64,000 nucleotides of DNA from the NCBI RefSeq assembly GCF_011516825.1, contig NZ_WOTA01000001.1:186001-250000 (forward strand). The letters are read 5' to 3'. The stretch comes from Acetobacter oeni (GTDB lineage: Bacteria > Pseudomonadota > Alphaproteobacteria > Acetobacterales > Acetobacteraceae). The notes under the pieces were generated by a model. It ran no database searches and was not told the origin of the DNA. It was given only the letters and a program-made list of their open reading frames with translations. Positions 6,754 to 37,163 of the stretch are shown piece after piece (within the stretch, counting starts at the first letter, position 1; each line of letters starts with the position of its first letter). The position numbers and the translations under genes were made by a program.

Positions 6754-8163
6754 TTATTGCGTGATCCGCAGGGAACTGTCTTCCAGGATCGTGTCGAATG
6801 TCGATGCGACAGCGCTCTGGATGGCCGGACCGTCATCCGCCTGAAAATACGTGTCGGAACTCGTAGCGCAGGACTGCATGGCCCCCTGCATGGTTCCGGA
6901 CCCGGTTCCCGCGATCGGCGCAATCAGCGTATCATACTGATTGTCGTTCGGAATGGCGTAATACGGCGCCCAGATCGAGAAAATCTTGACACCCATATTC
7001 TGTAATGTTGTGCAGAGCGAAGTATAGCTGAGATCAATGCTGCGGTGCCACGGCGTTGTGCCATAGATATCTTCCACACCATCCGAAAGAAAAACGATAT
7101 ACGTCTTCATGCTGGTAGCGGAAGACCCGTCTCCGACCCCGCTGAGCCCGGCAATAGCCTGCGTCAGCGCCGCAGTGGTTTTCGTATATCCGTAGTTATA
7201 CGTGCTGTAATTTGTTGAAGAGCTGTTCGGGTTGTCCTGAGCGTTCGCCAGAGGCGTCGCCGCCTCCAGGTCAATCGAGGCCGCGTCCGTCGCGGCCGTG
7301 CTCAGATCCGTGGTCGGCGCGAGCATCTGCGTAAACGACGTGCCGAATGTATCGATGCCCACCTTGATGTGAGTCGTGTCATTCTGAGCATATTCGGTCA
7401 GTTGCGTAATGAAATCCTGAATAGCCTCATTCACATAATCGATCTTGAGATCAATGCCCTCCGTCTTCGCTTCCGCTCTCATATCGCACGGGGCCAGTGT
7501 CGACTGATGTCGTCCCGATGAAGTTTTCGTCGTGCAGCTGATCGTGGCCACGGAATATCCGTTGGGGTCGTGACACGCAAAAGCGCATTGCCCGATTCCG
7601 CTTTCAAGCGAACTGATGGCCGCCGCCGTGCCGCCAACGCCCATCGAATTGGAAATATCGACCACGAAAATAACCTGGATATAGGCATTCCCTTCCGTGG
7701 TGGTGGCAGTCGAACTGACAGAAATCGTATTGGCTCCGGATGACAGAAATCCTGAAAAAAGCAGATTCGTCGTCTGGGAAAGCGCCACCGTCACCGTGCC
7801 GGAATAAGCCGTCGTGGCCGTGTAGGTAACCTGCGATGTGGGAACAGCCACACCCGCATTCGCCGCATTGGTCGTTATCGAGGCGACAGCCGCGGTCTGC
7901 GCCGTTGATTGCGCCCCGGCGGAAGTGGAAGACGTATTTTCTTCCACCAGATAAGTACTGGCCGCTTTCGCCGCCAGTAATGAAGCAGCGTCCGCCATGT
8001 CCTGAAGCTTGCTGCGTGTATTGATAATCATCCCGAGATCAACTGTGGCTGCGATCCCGATGATAAGCGGCACAAGAGAAACGGCCGCGATCGCAATGAC
8101 ACTTCCGCTCCGTGCCGCGCGTAGCTGTCTCAGAGCCGCCATGTTGCAGGCAAAGGAGGACAT
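6754..8163 (-). CDS. TadG-like pilus-assembly protein with von Willebrand A domain
   Basis: The N-terminus has one membrane helix (GSVIAIAAVSLVPLIIGIAA) followed by VDLGMIINTRSKLQDMADAA, the pattern of TadE/TadG pseudopilin-like proteins. A von Willebrand factor A domain follows, with the metal site DISNS after VIFVV and a later FLSDGVED. TadG proteins belong to Flp/Tad pilus systems or tight-adherence machinery. Start: ATG at 8163 is preferred (469 residues); the frame is open to a TTG at 8205. No other tad gene is in the window, so it is an orphan here. It converges with the glycerate kinase gene. The Ser/Thr-rich, moderate-GC sequence suits an exported protein. Confidence 0.75.
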   Translation of the reverse strand: MSSFACNMAALRQLRAARSGSVIAIAAVSLVPLIIGIAATVDLGMIINTRSKLQDMADAASLLAAKAASTYLVEENTSSTSAGAQSTAQTAAVASITTNAANAGVAVPTSQVTYTATTAYSGTVTVALSQTTNLLFSGFLSSGANTISVSSTATTTEGNAYIQVIFVVDISNSMGVGGTAAAISSLESGIGQCAFACHDPNGYSVATISCTTKTSSGRHQSTLAPCDMRAEAKTEGIDLKIDYVNEAIQDFITQLTEYAQNDTTHIKVGIDTFGTSFTQMLAPTTDLSTAATDAASIDLEAATPLANAQDNPNSSSTNYSTYNYGYTKTTAALTQAIAGLSGVGDGSSATSMKTYIVFLSDGVEDIYGTTPWHRSIDLSYTSLCTTLQNMGVKIFSIWAPYYAIPNDNQYDTLIAPIAGTGSGTMQGAMQSCATSSDTYFQADDGPAIQSAVASTFDTILEDSSLRITQ

Positions 8164-8668
8164 CGCTCTCAGAAAAGAGAAAAGCAGGGCAAATAAACGG
8201 CTCAAAGGAATATATTTCTGTAGCTCACATGCCCTGCCAGGGTGCTCTTACCGGACCGGGAGAGGAGGGCAGGGGACGCGGAATCGCCACTCAGGAGGGA
8301 GAAACTCCGAGGAGTCACTGTCCGCGTATTACAATTTGCAAAAAAACGATCCGACCGGATGTTATGCGGACAGATCAATGCCATTCGGAAAGGCATCGGC
8401 AGATCAGAGCCGGCATCGTCACGTTCAACACACCAGCCGCCCCTCGAAACACAGGAAAGCGCGCCATCTGGCATCGTCTGATCCTCAGCAGTCATCACTC
8501 AATAAAGCGAATCGCATGCTGACACTGAGGTTTTACAGAAAAGTTAATCCGCCCGGCGCATCCGGCAGTTACCGTTTCGGGTGCAGGAAACGAGCCCGCC
8601 ACCAGCCGCATCTCATCGACACAGCATTGCAGCCCATTCCATCATCCGGCGACCGGCCCTGCTCCGGA
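8164..8668. other. Intergenic region upstream of the TadG-like gene
   Basis: No gene recognised. It lies between two minus-strand genes and probably carries the promoter of the TadG-like gene. The only notable element is an exact GGGCAGGGGAC at 8267. Several short open frames cross it but have no ribosome site and no recognisable product. Confidence 0.5.
8267..8277 (+). other. GGGCAGGGGAC, KOPS-like polar word (copy 2)
   Basis: Exact plus-strand copy in the intergenic region upstream of the TadG-like gene. It is followed by GCG, as in copy 3. Confidence 0.5.
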
Positions 8669-31084: not shown

Positions 31085-32122
31085 TTACAGCAGATCGCGC
31101 AGAAACGGGATCAGCGGCAGATCAGCGGGCGGCATCGGATATTTCTCCAGATTCTCCGCCCTGACCCAGGCCAGAGCCTGACCCTCGCGTCCTTGCGGCG
31201 TCCCGTGCCAGCGGCGGCAAAGCCATAAAGGCATCAGCAGATCGAATTTTTCATAAGCATGCGACACGAACGTAAATGGAGCCAGACACGCCCGGCTGAC
31301 ATCAATGCCCAGCTCCTCATCAAGCTCCCGGATGAGCGCCGCCTCCGGTGTCTCCCCGGCATCGACCTTGCCGCCGGGAAACTCCCACAATCCGGCCAGA
31401 GTTTTGCCTTCCGGCCGACGCGCCAGCAAAATCCTGCCGTCTGAATCGATCAGCGCCACAGCCACGACCAGCACAAGCCTGCGACCTGAAACCAAAGCTT
31501 CCGGTTGCTCCCGCACAGTCTCCGCACCACCCTCAGACGAGCCGGTCATCTCACGAATGGCATCGAAATCCGACCGTTCGGCCTCAAATGTAAAAACCGG
31601 AATTTCGCCCCCACGTGCCATGAACGGTCGCGTCGCCGTGCCGGTCTGGCGAAATCCGATACGTTTCAGCACGGCAACCGAACCCGCATTGTCCTGCGCC
31701 GCCGTGGCCTCAAGCCTGTCGAGACGAAGATTCGCCAGCGCCCACCGGCAGACGCGATTCGCCGCCAGCGACGCAACGCCACGTCCCCAGTGCGCCCGGC
31801 CAATCCAGTAGCCAAGAGACGCCGAACGCAAGCCCTGCCTGGAATCGAGTGTCAGCCCCACGCATCCAATCAGACTCCCCGTCTGATTATCGATGACAGC
31901 GAAATGATAAGCCGTCCCGTCCGCCGCCTGCCGCGCCGTGCCGGCAATCCATTCCGAAGCCAGATCATGCGGATAAGGGAAGGGCAGGCGGCTCAGCATC
32001 CGGATGACGTTCCAGTCATTCACCAGACGATGAATGGCATTCGCGTCTCCCGGGAGAAGGCCCCGCAGCGTGTAAGCCCCGACCGTCAGGACCGGGGTAT
32101 CGACGTTTCCGTTACCGGGCAA
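31085..32122 (-). CDS. GNAT acetyltransferase fused to Nudix (MutT-like) hydrolase
   Basis: Two enzymes on one chain of 345 residues. Residues 15-185 form a RimJ/RimL-type GNAT N-acetyltransferase ([50 protein letters not shown]). After a Glu-rich linker, residues about 214-345 form a MutT-like Nudix hydrolase with the Nudix box at 250-272, where the G, E, RE and EE positions are all present (ending RELDEELG). MutT clears oxidised dGTP. The fusion joins an acetyltransferase to a sanitising hydrolase, for which no shared job is obvious. It begins seven bases after the Rieske gene and is probably co-transcribed with it. Confidence 0.85.
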
Positions 32123-32129
32123 AATGCAA

Positions 32130-33473
32130 TCAGACTTTCTGTTCGGCCGCCACCGCCGCCTTACGTTTTCTGCGGGCGGTCCGGCCCGTTTTTACCGGCG
32201 CGCTGCTCCGTCCGGAACTGTCATCAGCCGCAGCGGTCACTTTCGCGCTCTCATCAACAGCCTGCGGCTGGTTCTCAGTCGCAACAACAGCCTCAGACTG
32301 CGTCTCCGTTTTTCCGGCCTCGTCCTCCGGCACGAAGCCGGACTCCGCCAGCAGTCCCCGCAGCAGATTGATGACCGGGAAAACCTCCAGATTGTGGTCG
32401 CCCCCGAGATCCCGCCAGGCCTGCTGTTCCAGCTCGACGATCTCGCGATCTTCCGCGAAAATCCGCTCCGTAAAGGCCACCAGAAACGGCCAGGCCAGAT
32501 CGAGCAGACCCGGAATCCCCGGTTTTTTCACGGAGAGAAGACCAAATGTGCGGTTGGTGAGCTGCTCGCCATCCTGCGGCGTATAAGCAATCCACAGATC
32601 CATGACTGGTTCGGCATCGCCAGTCTGGATATGAAGTGTCTGATAAGGATAAACCGTCCGGATCGTCATGACATCACGGTCAGCATATTTCGAGGACGTA
32701 TCACGACGCTCGCCGAAAATCAGCGCCTCGCCCAGAGGCTGCTTCCCGCTCGTCCGTGCGAAAGAATACCGGGCCTCAACCATCCCCGGCTCCCGCTTCT
32801 GACCCAGGAAGCGCGGCCGCATCTGACCCATCTGTTTCATGTGCATAAACTGATGATTCATATCCATCAGATTCTCATGCATGAAACTGTAGTGGCAGTT
32901 CACAACCCGGCCAAAACGGCGCGTCTTGTAGCCGGGATCGTCAACACGGGCGAGAACCGCCGGCAGATGCGTCGTCGCGGCCTTCTCAGGATCGCCCGGA
33001 AAAACAAAAATCAGACCGTCCTGCTCCAGAACCGGATACGTCCGTACCCCGTTCGGCAGCTTGCCCTTGCCAAGATACGGAACATCAATGCACCGCCCCG
33101 AGCGCCCGTAAGCCCACCCGTGATAACAGCACTGAACCGACTGCCCGCAGACCCGGCCCTTGCTGAGCGGAACCTGACGGTGAGCACACCGGTCCTCAAG
33201 CGCGAAAACCTCGCCTTTTTCAGGACGGATCAGCGCAATGGGATGCTCCGCGTAACGCACCCCGATGGTCTTGCCAGGCTTCAGCTCGCGCGACCAGGCA
33301 ACCGGGTACCAGAAGTTCGGATCACAATGAACCCGCCGGAGATCAACACCCGGCATCACTCCCTCAGGCTTATCGCCGGTTTCAGACAGCTCTGTCGCCA
33401 TCTCCTGTGACATACCGGCCGGCTGGGCCGGGAATTCGCTCTGAAGTGACTGGTCCATCGTGTCCCTGCTCAT
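32130..33473 (-). CDS. Rieske 2Fe-2S oxygenase-like protein
   Basis: A 447-residue Rieske protein like the oxygenase component of ring-hydroxylating or demethylating systems. The Rieske domain spans about residues 53-160, with cluster ligands in CAH (C96, H98) and CCYH (C115, H118). The catalytic domain follows, with a mononuclear iron site in [13 protein letters not shown]. The C-terminal 70 residues are a low-complexity tail ending in a basic patch ([11 protein letters not shown]), which is not usual for the family. The ATG at 33473 has GGAGGAA at ideal spacing. No reductase or ferredoxin is adjacent. It lies downstream of the exported RidA gene, separated by 136 bases; the substrate is unknown. 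Confidence 0.8.
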
Positions 33474-33609
33474 GCTTCCTCCATCCGTTTCCGCCCCTGC
33501 TCCGGCAAAGCGGCGAAAATATGGACGCATAGCGTCTATACCATCCGTTCCGGACTGTCGAAGTGAGCCAGATCAAGCCCCGCACTCTCTTCGCACAATC
33601 CGGTCTGTT

Positions 33610-34134
33610 TTACGGATGCGTCGTGCGGACAGCGGTGACTTCAATCTCGATCAGCCAGCCCGGATTGGCGAGGTGTGCCACTTCAAAAGCCGAACGAACA
33701 GGGAGATTCGGCTGTGCTTTTGTGCCAAAAAATTGCGTGTAGGCCTTCATCATGCCCGGAAAATCGATCTTTCCCAGCTTCGGGTCCGCAGCCATGTACA
33801 TGTGCATCTGAATAACGCTGCCCATGGTCAGATTCAGCTTCGACAACTGATCCTGAATCTTCTCCAGCGCCCCGCGCGTCTGCGTTTCCGTGTCGCCATA
33901 AGCGGCAAGCGAATGCGCATCAGCCGTTTTATCGACCGGCGGCGCGCCCATGCCACTCAGATAAATTGTGGTGGCACCGGGCGGCACCTCAATCGCCTCG
34001 GCAATCGGGAAATGACTGGCCGGGTCCACATGACGCAGGACCGCATCCGCAGCCGACGCGCCGCTGACGCCGGAGAACCCGGCCACACCGGCACAGGCGA
34101 GCGCGACAAATGCGTGACGTGAGAAAAAGCTCAT
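33610..34134 (-). CDS. Exported RidA-family enamine/imine deaminase
   Basis: A RidA-family protein of 174 residues with an N-terminal signal peptide (about 1-29, ending GASA-AD). Family members hydrolyse reactive enamines and imines released by amino-acid and amine enzymes. The substrate-binding Arg of active RidA proteins is present as R147 in PVRSAFEVA, followed by the EIEV strand with Glu at 163/165, so activity is plausible. Most RidA proteins are cytoplasmic; this one appears periplasmic. It begins three bases after the cytochrome c gene, in an operon with an exported amine oxidase, the kind of enzyme whose imine product RidA would clear. Confidence 0.85.
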   Translation of the reverse strand: MSFFSRHAFVALACAGVAGFSGVSGASAADAVLRHVDPASHFPIAEAIEVPPGATTIYLSGMGAPPVDKTADAHSLAAYGDTETQTRGALEKIQDQLSKLNLTMGSVIQMHMYMAADPKLGKIDFPGMMKAYTQFFGTKAQPNLPVRSAFEVAHLANPGWLIEIEVTAVRTTHP

Positions 34135-34137
34135 GGG

Positions 34138-34572
34138 CTATTCATCTTCCTTAGTGAGTTCAGGGCGCATCGGCGCGACATCCGTCGGCGTGGCGGCACC
34201 GCTGAAGTGGTTGCCAAAATGAGTGCGGATAAAGTTGACCACATCGGCAACCTGTTTGTCAGTCAGCAGCCCGGCGAATGATGGCATGCCACCATGCCCG
34301 TTGAGAACGGTATAAATCGGGAAATCCGCCGTCTGCAATTTCGTATTTCCCGCAAAACCGGGAAATCCCGAACTCGCCCCCGCAGCGCCTCTGCCGTCAG
34401 CCATGTGACAGCCCTGACAGACATGCTGATAAATCGCGGCCCCCGTCGTCAGCGGCTGCATCGGACCCGCGACCGATGACGCCGAGTCAGCCCGCGCCAC
34501 ACCCGGCGCCGCCAGTGTCGCAATGGCGCCGGACACAGCCGCCACCGCCAGAAAATAAGTCCCGAAGCGCAT
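34138..34572 (-). CDS. Exported single-heme cytochrome c
   Basis: A 144-residue class I cytochrome c. The signal peptide MRFGTYFLAVAAVSGAIATLAA ends near ARA-DS. The heme motif is CQGCH (C52, C55, H56), and the axial Met is probably M96 in GHGGMPSF, followed by the C-terminal helix TDKQVADVVNFIRTHFG. It should be a soluble or loosely bound periplasmic electron carrier. Its ATG overlaps the stop of the amine oxidase gene as TGATG, a coupling that implies matched synthesis; it is the natural electron acceptor for that flavoenzyme. An upstream in-frame extension to 34650 lies inside the oxidase gene and is not favoured. Confidence 0.88.
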   Translation of the reverse strand: MRFGTYFLAVAAVSGAIATLAAPGVARADSASSVAGPMQPLTTGAAIYQHVCQGCHMADGRGAAGASSGFPGFAGNTKLQTADFPIYTVLNGHGGMPSFAGLLTDKQVADVVNFIRTHFGNHFSGAATPTDVAPMRPELTKEDE

Positions 34573-36173
34573 CACGCACCTCCCACAGCGCGTTTGTGCA
34601 GCGTCGTAATGGCCGCCAGCGAGGACAGAATCGCGCCCTCCTGCCAGCAACCGACATAAGAAGCGTGTTCACCCGCCAGAACGATCCGGTTATCCATGGT
34701 GACAAGCGTTTTGTAATGCTCCTTGCGAGCCTGTTCCGTCCATGCGCCGCAACAGCCAAGCGTCCACGGCACACGGCTCCACGCAAAACCGACGCCGTTG
34801 GAAAATTCTTTTCGATACTGCGGATGAAGCAGACTCCCCTGGCGGAGACCCTCTTCCACGCGCTGCTCCGGCGTCATCCCGGCAAAATCGAGCGCCGCCG
34901 GCCCGAACATGTAGCCACCAAGCAGAACCCCGGGTCCCTTCGAGAAAATCCCCGAACTCGGATAGGAAATCTGGCTGATCTGCTGCGACGTGAAGCTGAT
35001 CCCCCCGTAAATCTGCTCATCCTGCTCCCAGAACCGACGTTTGAATTCCAGCCCGAGCTTTACCGACGAACCATAAGGCACCGCTGCAATCGCAGCCTTC
35101 AGCGGCGCGCCAACCTGCACATCGAGCTGCGAAAGAACGGGCAGGGGGATCGTGCACACGCAGTAATCCGCATCCACCGTCCGCACGGCATTTCCGGCCG
35201 CCATGTCGTTATACGTGACCTTCACGCCATGATCGTCCTGATGGATCGACGTGACCTTGCAGTTCAGCGTGATGAGATCATGCACCTGCCGGGCAAAGCT
35301 CTTGCCGATGTTGTCCATGCCGCCAACCGGCTGGAACATCGTCGTCTGCATGTCCAGACGCTCATGAAAGGCAATATACTGCCACAGACCCGAACTCATG
35401 ATTTCGTCACGCGACATCAGACCGGACGGGATCGGCGCTCCGTCAATGCCGCCCCCCTGCGCCCGCTCGAAGCCACGGCGAAGCGAACTCCGGTTTCCCT
35501 TCGTCCAGGTCGCGTCATCACTGAGCCCGCCCCAGGCCTGCATGGCCGCCTTTACATGCTCCCGCTCATCCGGCGACATCACATCGTCAAGCTTGTGCTG
35601 TTCGACCGATTTGGAAATCAGCTCCGCCGTGTAGCCGAAGAAATCGCTCGCAAACTCGCGGTAACGCACCGGCTTGCCACCAAACGCGTCCGGTGAATGC
35701 AGATACGAATTATGATTCAGCTCGATAAACGGTTCCAGCGCCACGCCAAAAGCGTTGCAATAATGCAGCAGCCCCTGATGATGGTAAGGAATCCGCCATG
35801 GACCCGGATTGATATAGTTCCCCGGCGCAAACCCGACCTTCTGCGTGTGCCCGCCCATCTCGGTTACCGTATCGCCACCACGCAGCGTGATATTGCGGCC
35901 GCCCGGACGGTTCTGAAATTCGAGCACCTGAACGGCATAACCGGCCTTGCGCAGCTCATAGGCCGCCAGCATTCCCGCCAGCCCGCTGCCCAGAACCACA
36001 ACCCGCGTGCCTTTCCGGGCCCCGGCAAGATTCGGCGGCCCCCTGAAATCCGTCCCCATCGCATGCCCGAGGCTCGTCATCGCCTGATAAAGACCCGCGC
36101 TGCCCGCGAGAAGTCCGATCCGGGTCAGCAACTGGCGGCGAGTAGGCGCCGTTTGCTGAGAAGCGTCTGCCAT
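34572..36173 (-). CDS. Tat-exported flavin amine oxidase / amino-acid oxidase-like protein
   Basis: A 533-residue FAD enzyme of the monoamine oxidase/L-amino-acid oxidase family, which oxidises amines to imines. The twin-arginine signal TRRQLLTRIGLLAG is at residues 11-24. The FAD Rossmann motif GSGLAG (62-67) is followed by E85 and RPGGR (89-93). The C-terminal FAD motif AGEHASYVGCWQEGA starts about residue 500. Export, and a cytochrome c gene overlapping its stop codon, suggest that it acts as a dehydrogenase passing electrons to cytochrome c, as shown for the related NicA2 of Pseudomonas putida. The substrate is unknown. It heads the minus-strand unit that continues through RidA. Confidence 0.88.
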   Translation of the reverse strand: MADASQQTAPTRRQLLTRIGLLAGSAGLYQAMTSLGHAMGTDFRGPPNLAGARKGTRVVVLGSGLAGMLAAYELRKAGYAVQVLEFQNRPGGRNITLRGGDTVTEMGGHTQKVGFAPGNYINPGPWRIPYHHQGLLHYCNAFGVALEPFIELNHNSYLHSPDAFGGKPVRYREFASDFFGYTAELISKSVEQHKLDDVMSPDEREHVKAAMQAWGGLSDDATWTKGNRSSLRRGFERAQGGGIDGAPIPSGLMSRDEIMSSGLWQYIAFHERLDMQTTMFQPVGGMDNIGKSFARQVHDLITLNCKVTSIHQDDHGVKVTYNDMAAGNAVRTVDADYCVCTIPLPVLSQLDVQVGAPLKAAIAAVPYGSSVKLGLEFKRRFWEQDEQIYGGISFTSQQISQISYPSSGIFSKGPGVLLGGYMFGPAALDFAGMTPEQRVEEGLRQGSLLHPQYRKEFSNGVGFAWSRVPWTLGCCGAWTEQARKEHYKTLVTMDNRIVLAGEHASYVGCWQEGAILSSLAAITTLHKRAVGGA

Positions 36174-36308: not shown

Positions 36309-37163
36309 TCATTTCGTTTCAAGCGACGCCGCCAGGTCATCGGTAAACTGGACAGCAACACGCCCCGACCGGTTTCCCCGCGAAATCGACCAGGCATTCG
36401 CCCGCCGGCACAGCTCATCATCGGCAATCTCAAGCCCGCGCTCCTTCGCGTAAGCCCGCACCATGTCGAAATAGACATCCTGCGAACAGGCATGAAAGCC
36501 GAGCCACAACCCGAACCGGTCCGACAGTGACACCTTCTCCTCAACCGCTTCCCCCGGATTGATCGCCGTCGACCGTTCATTGTCGATCATGTCCCTTGGC
36601 ATCAGATGCCGCCGGTTCGACGTGGCATAAAACAGAACATTCTCCGGCCGCCCCGCGATCCCGCCATCCAGTACCGATTTCAACGCCTTGTAATCCCGGT
36701 CCTCGCGCTCGAACGACAGATCGTCGCAAAACACAATAAACCGTCGGGAAGAGCCGCGCAGCAGCGCCAGCAGCTCAGGCAGCGTCGCCAGATCCTCGCG
36801 CTCGATCTCAATCAGCACCACAGGGCCAGAAGCAGGCCTCTCCGCATTAATCGCCGCATGACAGGCCTTGACCAGAGACGACTTGCCCATCCCCCGCGAG
36901 CCCCACAGCATCGCATTGTTCGCCGGCAGCCCCCGCCCGAAATGACGGGTGTTCTCCAGCAACTGATCCCGCTGCGAATCGACCCCCCGGATCAGCCCGA
37001 TCGGCACATGAGCAACGTGAGCAACCGGATCGAGCCGGCCCCGCTCCGGCTGCCAGACAAAGGCATCGGCCGCGTCCAGACCACCCAGCGTGGCAGGCGG
37101 CGGTGACAGACGTTCCAGCGCGGAGGCGATCCGTTCCAGAATGGGGTGCAGCTCGGTCGTCAT
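36309..37163 (-). CDS. DUF815-family AAA+ ATPase
   Basis: A 284-residue P-loop ATPase. Walker A is GSRGMGKSS, Walker B is RFIVFCDDLSFE, and the segment LLRGSSRRFIVFCDDL and YKALKSVLDGG fit the COG2607/DUF815 family, whose role is not established. Sensor-like residues follow in VLFYATSNRRHLMPRD. The ATG at 37163 follows CCGGAGA; an in-frame start at 37235 would add 24 residues without family support. It is divergent from yajC, as in several Alphaproteobacteria. Confidence 0.85.
   Translation of the reverse strand: MTTELHPILERIASALERLSPPPATLGGLDAADAFVWQPERGRLDPVAHVAHVPIGLIRGVDSQRDQLLENTRHFGRGLPANNAMLWGSRGMGKSSLVKACHAAINAERPASGPVVLIEIEREDLATLPELLALLRGSSRRFIVFCDDLSFEREDRDYKALKSVLDGGIAGRPENVLFYATSNRRHLMPRDMIDNERSTAINPGEAVEEKVSLSDRFGLWLGFHACSQDVYFDMVRAYAKERGLEIADDELCRRANAWSISRGNRSGRVAVQFTDDLAASLETK

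Follow-up and report, generated by a model that had tools for sequence, protein, structure and literature searches.

An operon for an exported flavin oxidase, cytochrome c and RidA in Acetobacter oeni is an orthologue of lao-cccA-ridA and probably encodes a cytochrome-linked L-amino acid dehydrogenase

In Gluconacetobacter diazotrophicus PAL5, the operon lao-cccA-ridA (GDI2456–2454) was described in 2016 as being needed for the conversion of tryptophan to auxin (PMC5053998). Two Tn5 insertions in lao abolished the formation of indole-3-acetic acid (IAA) and left most of the tryptophan over, with transcripts of all three genes reduced, and Lao itself carries a twin-arginine translocation (Tat) signal (PMC5053998). 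Earlier mutants in ccm, which is responsible for cytochrome c maturation, made 5% of the wild-type amount of IAA (cited in PMC5053998). A predicted Fur box precedes both nuoA–N and lao in this species, and lao has been grouped with electron-transport genes (PMC9368920). Here we describe a locus of this kind in a 64,000-nucleotide stretch of the Acetobacter oeni genome (NZ_WOTA01000001.1, positions 186,001 to 250,000; hereafter the window, with positions counted from its first letter), in which genes for a flavin amine oxidase, a cytochrome c and a RidA protein lie contiguously on one strand in the order lao-cccA-ridA.

Two other described systems resemble parts of this arrangement. Dehydrogenases of the NicA2/Pnao–CycN type likewise combine a Tat-exported flavoprotein with an adjacent cytochrome c exported by the general secretory (Sec) route, and kinetic work from 2025 on clades other than that of Lao found this combination to be a good predictor of cytochrome-using dehydrogenases (PMC12224317). 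They differ from Lao in that its nearest relatives are L-amino acid oxidases (LAAOs) and that it often has a RidA partner. The 2025 survey began from NicA2 matches, and its available text contains neither 'LAAO' nor 'amino acid oxidase' (PMC12224317). In Chlamydomonas, the LAO1/LAO2 system pairs a periplasmic LAAO with a RidA-like partner and makes indole-3-pyruvate, but it releases H2O2, and the available text names no cytochrome partner for the alga (PMC10805672).

The window operon has the genes, order and strand of its G. diazotrophicus counterpart, including a Tat-signal Lao of 533 amino acids. All six reverse-transcription quantitative PCR primers printed in PMC5053998 match our locus L036 exactly (a second locus, L035, carries five of the six), and L036 shares with the window 77% identity in Lao (531 amino acids), 65% in the cytochrome (119) and 78% in RidA (147). 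Given the same gene order, the exact primer matches and these identities, the window operon is, as judged from sequence, the Acetobacter orthologue of the published lao-cccA-ridA, and hence belongs to a kind of system that was already known. The window copy differs in being inserted between a Rieske gene and a DUF815 gene. The auxin role is a feature of G. diazotrophicus and would extend to A. oeni by analogy. The available text of PMC5053998 treats Lao, not RidA, as exported; the RidA frame of L036 opens with a signal-like stretch.

We put at roughly 75% the probability that this operon oxidizes L-amino acids in the periplasm, delivers the electrons to its own cytochrome c and clears the resulting imine with an exported RidA. 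Lao would fold with its flavin adenine dinucleotide in the cytoplasm before Tat export and, once periplasmic, would convert L-amino acids to imino acids; these substrates would include tryptophan if the analogy with G. diazotrophicus holds. The reduced flavin would then hand over single electrons, presumably directly, to the operon's cytochrome c, with O2 at most a minor acceptor, and the exported RidA may hydrolyse Lao's imino acid to a 2-oxo acid and ammonium. In the case of tryptophan, the product would be indole-3-pyruvate, an auxin precursor.

The gene arrangement had been read from the DNA alone in the original prediction, and its details hold. A PF01593 domain and the N-terminal TRRQLL, with its twin Arg, bear out the proposed twin-arginine flavin amine oxidase. 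The TGATG overlap of oxidase stop and cytochrome start is real, the lao TGA (34574–34572) and the cytochrome ATG (34572–34570) having one base in common, and three bases separate the cytochrome stop from the start of RidA, which has the claimed export signal, of Sec type. The suggested signal-peptide check came out positive for oxidase, cytochrome and RidA under the home-made rule that we used throughout instead of SignalP, a lenient one by which 12 of the 42 gene-like open reading frames (ORFs) of the window score as positive. No promoter-like site was found in a scan around the operon, and the five terminator-like sites there, against 3.3 expected, are uninformative.

To place the operon among its relatives, we used the best 80 of at least 586 Lao relatives as a set of named loci, which are all at least 56% identical and together yield 83 oxidases; among these named relatives, the oxidases from A. 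fallax (91%) and A. musti (88%) come nearest to Lao. Because the twin Arg is kept in all 83 oxidases, the haem motif CxxCH and its Met ligand (Met96) in 81 of 81 cytochrome ORFs, and the putative catalytic residues of RidA (R147, E163 and E165) in 38 of 38 copies, the predicted anatomy of the module is not a product of chance.

Lao is closest to the L-amino acid oxidases in both sequence and predicted fold. Its best solved relative by sequence is the Rhodococcus opacus LAAO (2jae, 286 bits), followed by ancestral and snake LAAOs. The AlphaFold model (mean predicted local distance difference test score, pLDDT, of 79) also has 2jae as its best structural match, with a template-modelling (TM) score of 0.81–0.82 by query length and a root-mean-square deviation of 2.7, and R. 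opacus and snake LAAOs stand at the top of the best 50 structural matches. R127 and W510, kept in 83 of 83 oxidases, align with the carboxylate-binding substrate Arg and the substrate Trp of 2jae; Y421 aligns with its substrate Tyr. A literature search gave no source for these residue roles. To our knowledge, no partner cytochrome has been described for the R. opacus enzyme. With a PF01593 fold nearest to LAAOs and the Arg equivalent R127, Lao has the marks of the L-amino acid oxidase family, and because its relatives in sequence and fold are LAAOs and R127 and W510 are kept, an L-amino acid is the most likely substrate.

The original prediction had taken NicA2 as the biochemical model for the oxidase. 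Its nearest solved relatives are instead LAAOs, 2jae first, and since the top sequence and structural matches are all of this kind, a NicA2-type amine was ruled out as the first choice of substrate.

The cytochrome is a near-constant companion of Lao. By a single-sequence search counting same-strand matches no more than 300 bases away, 79 of the 80 named loci have it next to Lao; in the exception (L147) the contig stops 79 bases past the Lao frame. This adjacency is tighter than that of RidA, which is present in 36 of 80. The conserved co-occurrence in acetic acid bacteria, for which a search had been proposed, is borne out. Among 15 stretches from further genomes, 12 have a cytochrome match beside the oxidase. 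Both features that make up the published predictor, a Tat signal on the flavoprotein and an adjacent exported cytochrome c, are thus present here.

RidA copies were counted above 60 bits, which leaves out weak matches in L107 and L132. This gave 38 ORFs, on Lao's strand and within 1.5 kb of it in all 36 loci concerned; 36 of the 38 carry a predicted signal peptide and the other two fall 0.01 below the cut-off. By the same rule, none of the five other Rid proteins of the A. oeni genome has a signal. The claim that a periplasmic RidA is unusual therefore stands when the comparison is with the rest of this genome but not beside Lao, where a RidA with a predicted export signal is the rule, a point that is new here. 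In an order-wide sample of 299 genomes (cut-offs of 1e-40 for Lao, 1e-20 for RidA and 1e-60 for Rieske), Lao occurs in 72 genomes, at 104 places that include fragments. Exported-type RidA occurs in 71 genomes at 76 places, and 60 of these are no more than 1.5 kb away from Lao. The RidA homologues are thus neither free of signals nor without a conserved neighbourhood. A tree of 84 oxidases, made by a quick method and labelled with any same-strand RidA nearby (tandem copies both counted), has 28 rows with RidA downstream of Lao, from acetic acid bacteria and Aminobacter. In 12 further rows, from sphingomonads, RidA is upstream, and 44 rows have none.

The solved structures nearest to the window's RidA are PFL1385 and PSPTO3006, which have been placed in Rid3 and reported to have imine deaminase activity (PMC5619798). 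An equivalent of Arg-105 is the published criterion for a Rid imine deaminase (PMC5619798); by alignment to the solved relatives, R147 is that residue, and together with the PF01042 domain it points to a putative imine deaminase. Among five RidA places away from Lao whose surroundings we viewed, the annotated one, L173 (G109:C12, 4759–10720, minus strand), has an exported RidA but no lao; its neighbours are a TonB receptor, a permease of the purine/allantoin type (Transp_cyt_pur), an M20 peptidase and an amidohydrolase, so exported RidA seems tied to more than Lao.

Several observations weigh against the assignment of these roles. The Tyr position aligned with R. opacus LAAO, Y421, is Phe in 42 of the 83 oxidases (Tyr in 40, Asn in one). 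The flavin-site Lys, K372, is kept in 83 of 83 Lao proteins; this residue is common to nearly all oxidases and dehydrogenases alike (PMC12224317). Within the 299 genomes, RidA is missing from the 1.5 kb around 44 of the 104 Lao places and must there be either dispensable or provided in trans, and 16 of the 76 exported-type RidA places have no Lao at that distance. Three oxidases of 36–37% identity (L058, L059 and L062) have no cytochrome match beside them, and the ORFs near them hold no haem motif except one outside the family in L062 (the L058 contig is 4.2 kb long); because of these loci, the pairing of oxidase and cytochrome is no rule for the oxidase family as a whole. In addition, no kinetics for the Lao clade were found in the literature.

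A further difficulty is where the electrons would go. Lao is present in 22 of 36 Acetobacter genomes, and 18 of these 22 have no recognisable cytochrome c oxidase. The best CtaD match in each of the 22 scores 557–572 bits, under the 672 and 657 bits of G321 and G003, which seem to possess a true CtaD enzyme; by length and score the lower-scoring matches look like CyoB, an assignment verified for the window's genome only. CcoN-like matches below the cut-off occur in two of the 22, the A. oeni genome (G000; 251–252 bits) and G064 (154 bits), and two more, G011 and G129, have a 90-bit CtaD-type match of unassigned class and are left out of the 18. Across 49 Acetobacter genomes, just four have CcoN-like matches above 150 bits, whereas PF03150 (the cytochrome c peroxidase/MauG family) occurs in all 49 and cytochrome c1 in 47. 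Most of the Lao-bearing Acetobacter sampled thus have no recognisable cytochrome c oxidase that could drain Lao's cytochrome, and this missing final electron sink is a point that we add here. A cytochrome c peroxidase is one route by which cytochrome c can be reoxidized in acetous bacteria (PMC10715153).

Two loci of the A. oeni genome touch on this subject. L174 (G000:C41, 3397–7830, minus strand) holds divergent cbb3-like oxidase genes for CcoN, a CcoO-like protein and two more multi-haem c proteins. Weak COX1-like frames of about 420–490 amino acids, under 50 bits, occur in many Acetobacter genomes; the one in L067 (G000:C3, 1399–2751, plus strand) has 450 amino acids and a weak PF00115 match, and stands next to a haem O synthase-like gene. 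Because this frame lacks, by eye, the usual HPEVY motif, it looks like a degenerate, decayed cytochrome oxidase subunit.

These findings bear on whether Lao is an ordinary H2O2-forming periplasmic LAAO, with a cytochrome that serves a peroxidase or is loosely involved. The identity of its closest solved relatives, the distant homologues without a cytochrome neighbour and the scarcity of cytochrome c oxidases alongside universal PF03150 would all suit such an enzyme, but it would leave unexplained why the cytochrome adjoins Lao in nearly every close locus, more faithfully than RidA does, and why losing c-type cytochrome maturation depresses IAA so severely in G. diazotrophicus (cited in PMC5053998). 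We regard it as unlikely, and favour electron transfer to the operon's own cytochrome.

Another question concerns the substrate, and arises from a second Lao in the A. oeni genome (L050, G000:C4:99000–114000; 6803–8404, plus strand), which is 77% identical to that of the window and has its own cytochrome c. A TonB-dependent receptor lies 73 bases upstream of it, and no RidA adjoins. Of the 80 named loci, 20 have a homologue of this receptor, 19 at under 700 bases from Lao and one at 1.1 kb. In the larger sample, at least 26 of the 104 Lao places, in 24 genomes, have a receptor of this subfamily no more than 1 kb away, a lower bound because three candidates were scored per genome. Sphingomonad loci such as L136, L138, L140, L141 and L144 have receptor, RidA, Lao and cytochrome in a run on one strand. 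Many more receptors of the subfamily are found away from Lao, and some of these adjoin the Rieske gene. For five receptors compared with NCBIfam, every match listed is below its cut-off, and matches to solved receptors fall mostly on the plug. The recurrent TonB receptor neighbour is an addition of this work; we found no link between receptor and lao in the literature (subscription journals lie mostly outside the search), nor in the available text of PMC9368920 and PMC12502724.

This linkage, with the single-strand runs in sphingomonads, raises the idea that the true substrate of Lao is a compound imported by the receptor and no common free amino acid. It seems doubtful to us: the window copy has no adjoining receptor, the receptor's ligand is unassigned, and G. 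diazotrophicus uses free tryptophan (PMC5053998). We retain an L-amino acid as the expected substrate. Positions of the genes in and around the operon are given in Table 1.

Table 1. Genes of the window operon and its flanks
Feature	Position in window	Strand	Domain evidence
Lao, Tat-exported L-amino acid oxidase-type flavoprotein (predicted), 533 amino acids	34572..36173	-	PF01593 6.5e-53
CccA-like Sec-exported (predicted) monohaem cytochrome c, 144 amino acids	34138..34572	-	PF13442 6.7e-13
RidA-family protein with Sec-type signal, nearest Rid3, putative imine deaminase, 174 amino acids	33610..34134	-	PF01042 5.8e-15
Rieske [2Fe-2S] oxygenase, VanA_C type, probably outside the module	32130..33473	-	PF00355 1e-23, PF19112
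GNAT-NUDIX fusion, usual neighbour of the Rieske gene	31085..32122	-	PF13302 + PF14815
DUF815 ATPase, upstream boundary of the slot	36309..37163	-	PF05673 6.6e-102

The remaining neighbour is the Rieske gene. Its longest frame begins at 33530; counted from the Met at 33473, the gap to RidA is the 136 bases originally noted, and the RNA fold of this interval has a z of -2.2. Of the four products, the Rieske protein is the exception in having no predicted signal peptide by our rule. It is also more widespread than Lao, being found in 127 of the 299 genomes compared with 72. We compared 37 Rieske loci, including the window, which were picked by hand and in some cases for the linkage itself: a GNAT-NUDIX neighbour is present in 30, the DUF815 gene in 24 and lao in four. 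Where Rieske and DUF815 genes were both seen, the space between them has no visible content in 11 loci and holds lao-cccA-ridA in three (the window, L051 and L052), ridA alone in one, a TonB receptor in six and other ORFs in three. In L169, lao-cccA-ridA stands beside the Rieske gene on the opposite strand. The locus with ridA alone in the slot is L167 (G112:C78), whose genome has its Lao and cytochrome on another contig (L168). The six with a receptor, L183 and L190–L194, have one of the lao-linked subfamily.

The Rieske block thus keeps its own neighbours in loci without lao, and a neighbourhood conserved jointly with lao was not seen. Because the protein is unsignalled, has a wider spread than Lao and keeps its own block where lao is missing, it is probably a bystander and not part of the module; a shared past of the two is likely. 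That the oxygenase is a functional fourth member acting on product or substrate, as the original prediction had suggested for the product, is very improbable on these grounds, with 30 of the 37 loci keeping GNAT-NUDIX against four with lao and 11 gaps without visible content, even though parts of the module recur beside it in the window, L051, L052, L169 and L167, and the receptor in L183 and L190–L194. What survives of the proposed self-contained exported module is a predicted unit of flavin dehydrogenase, cytochrome c and imine hydrolase, without the NicA2 type or Rieske membership.

A wider scenario, which we offer tentatively, is that a branch of the LAAOs, apart from the NicA2 line, became a cytochrome c-dependent L-amino acid dehydrogenase equipped with a periplasmic imine hydrolase and often with a TonB receptor. 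In those Acetobacter without a cytochrome c oxidase, the electrons may then leave by another route, such as a cytochrome c peroxidase.

Taken together, these data name a likely electron acceptor and imine handler for an operon that is needed in bacterial auxin formation. If this is true, the class of cytochrome-using amine dehydrogenases would extend to a clade of amino acid oxidases. The RidA proteins have a recurrent branch with predicted export. The operon would also provide a defined source of electrons for studying the role of c-type cytochromes in those acetic acid bacteria that have no cytochrome c oxidase.

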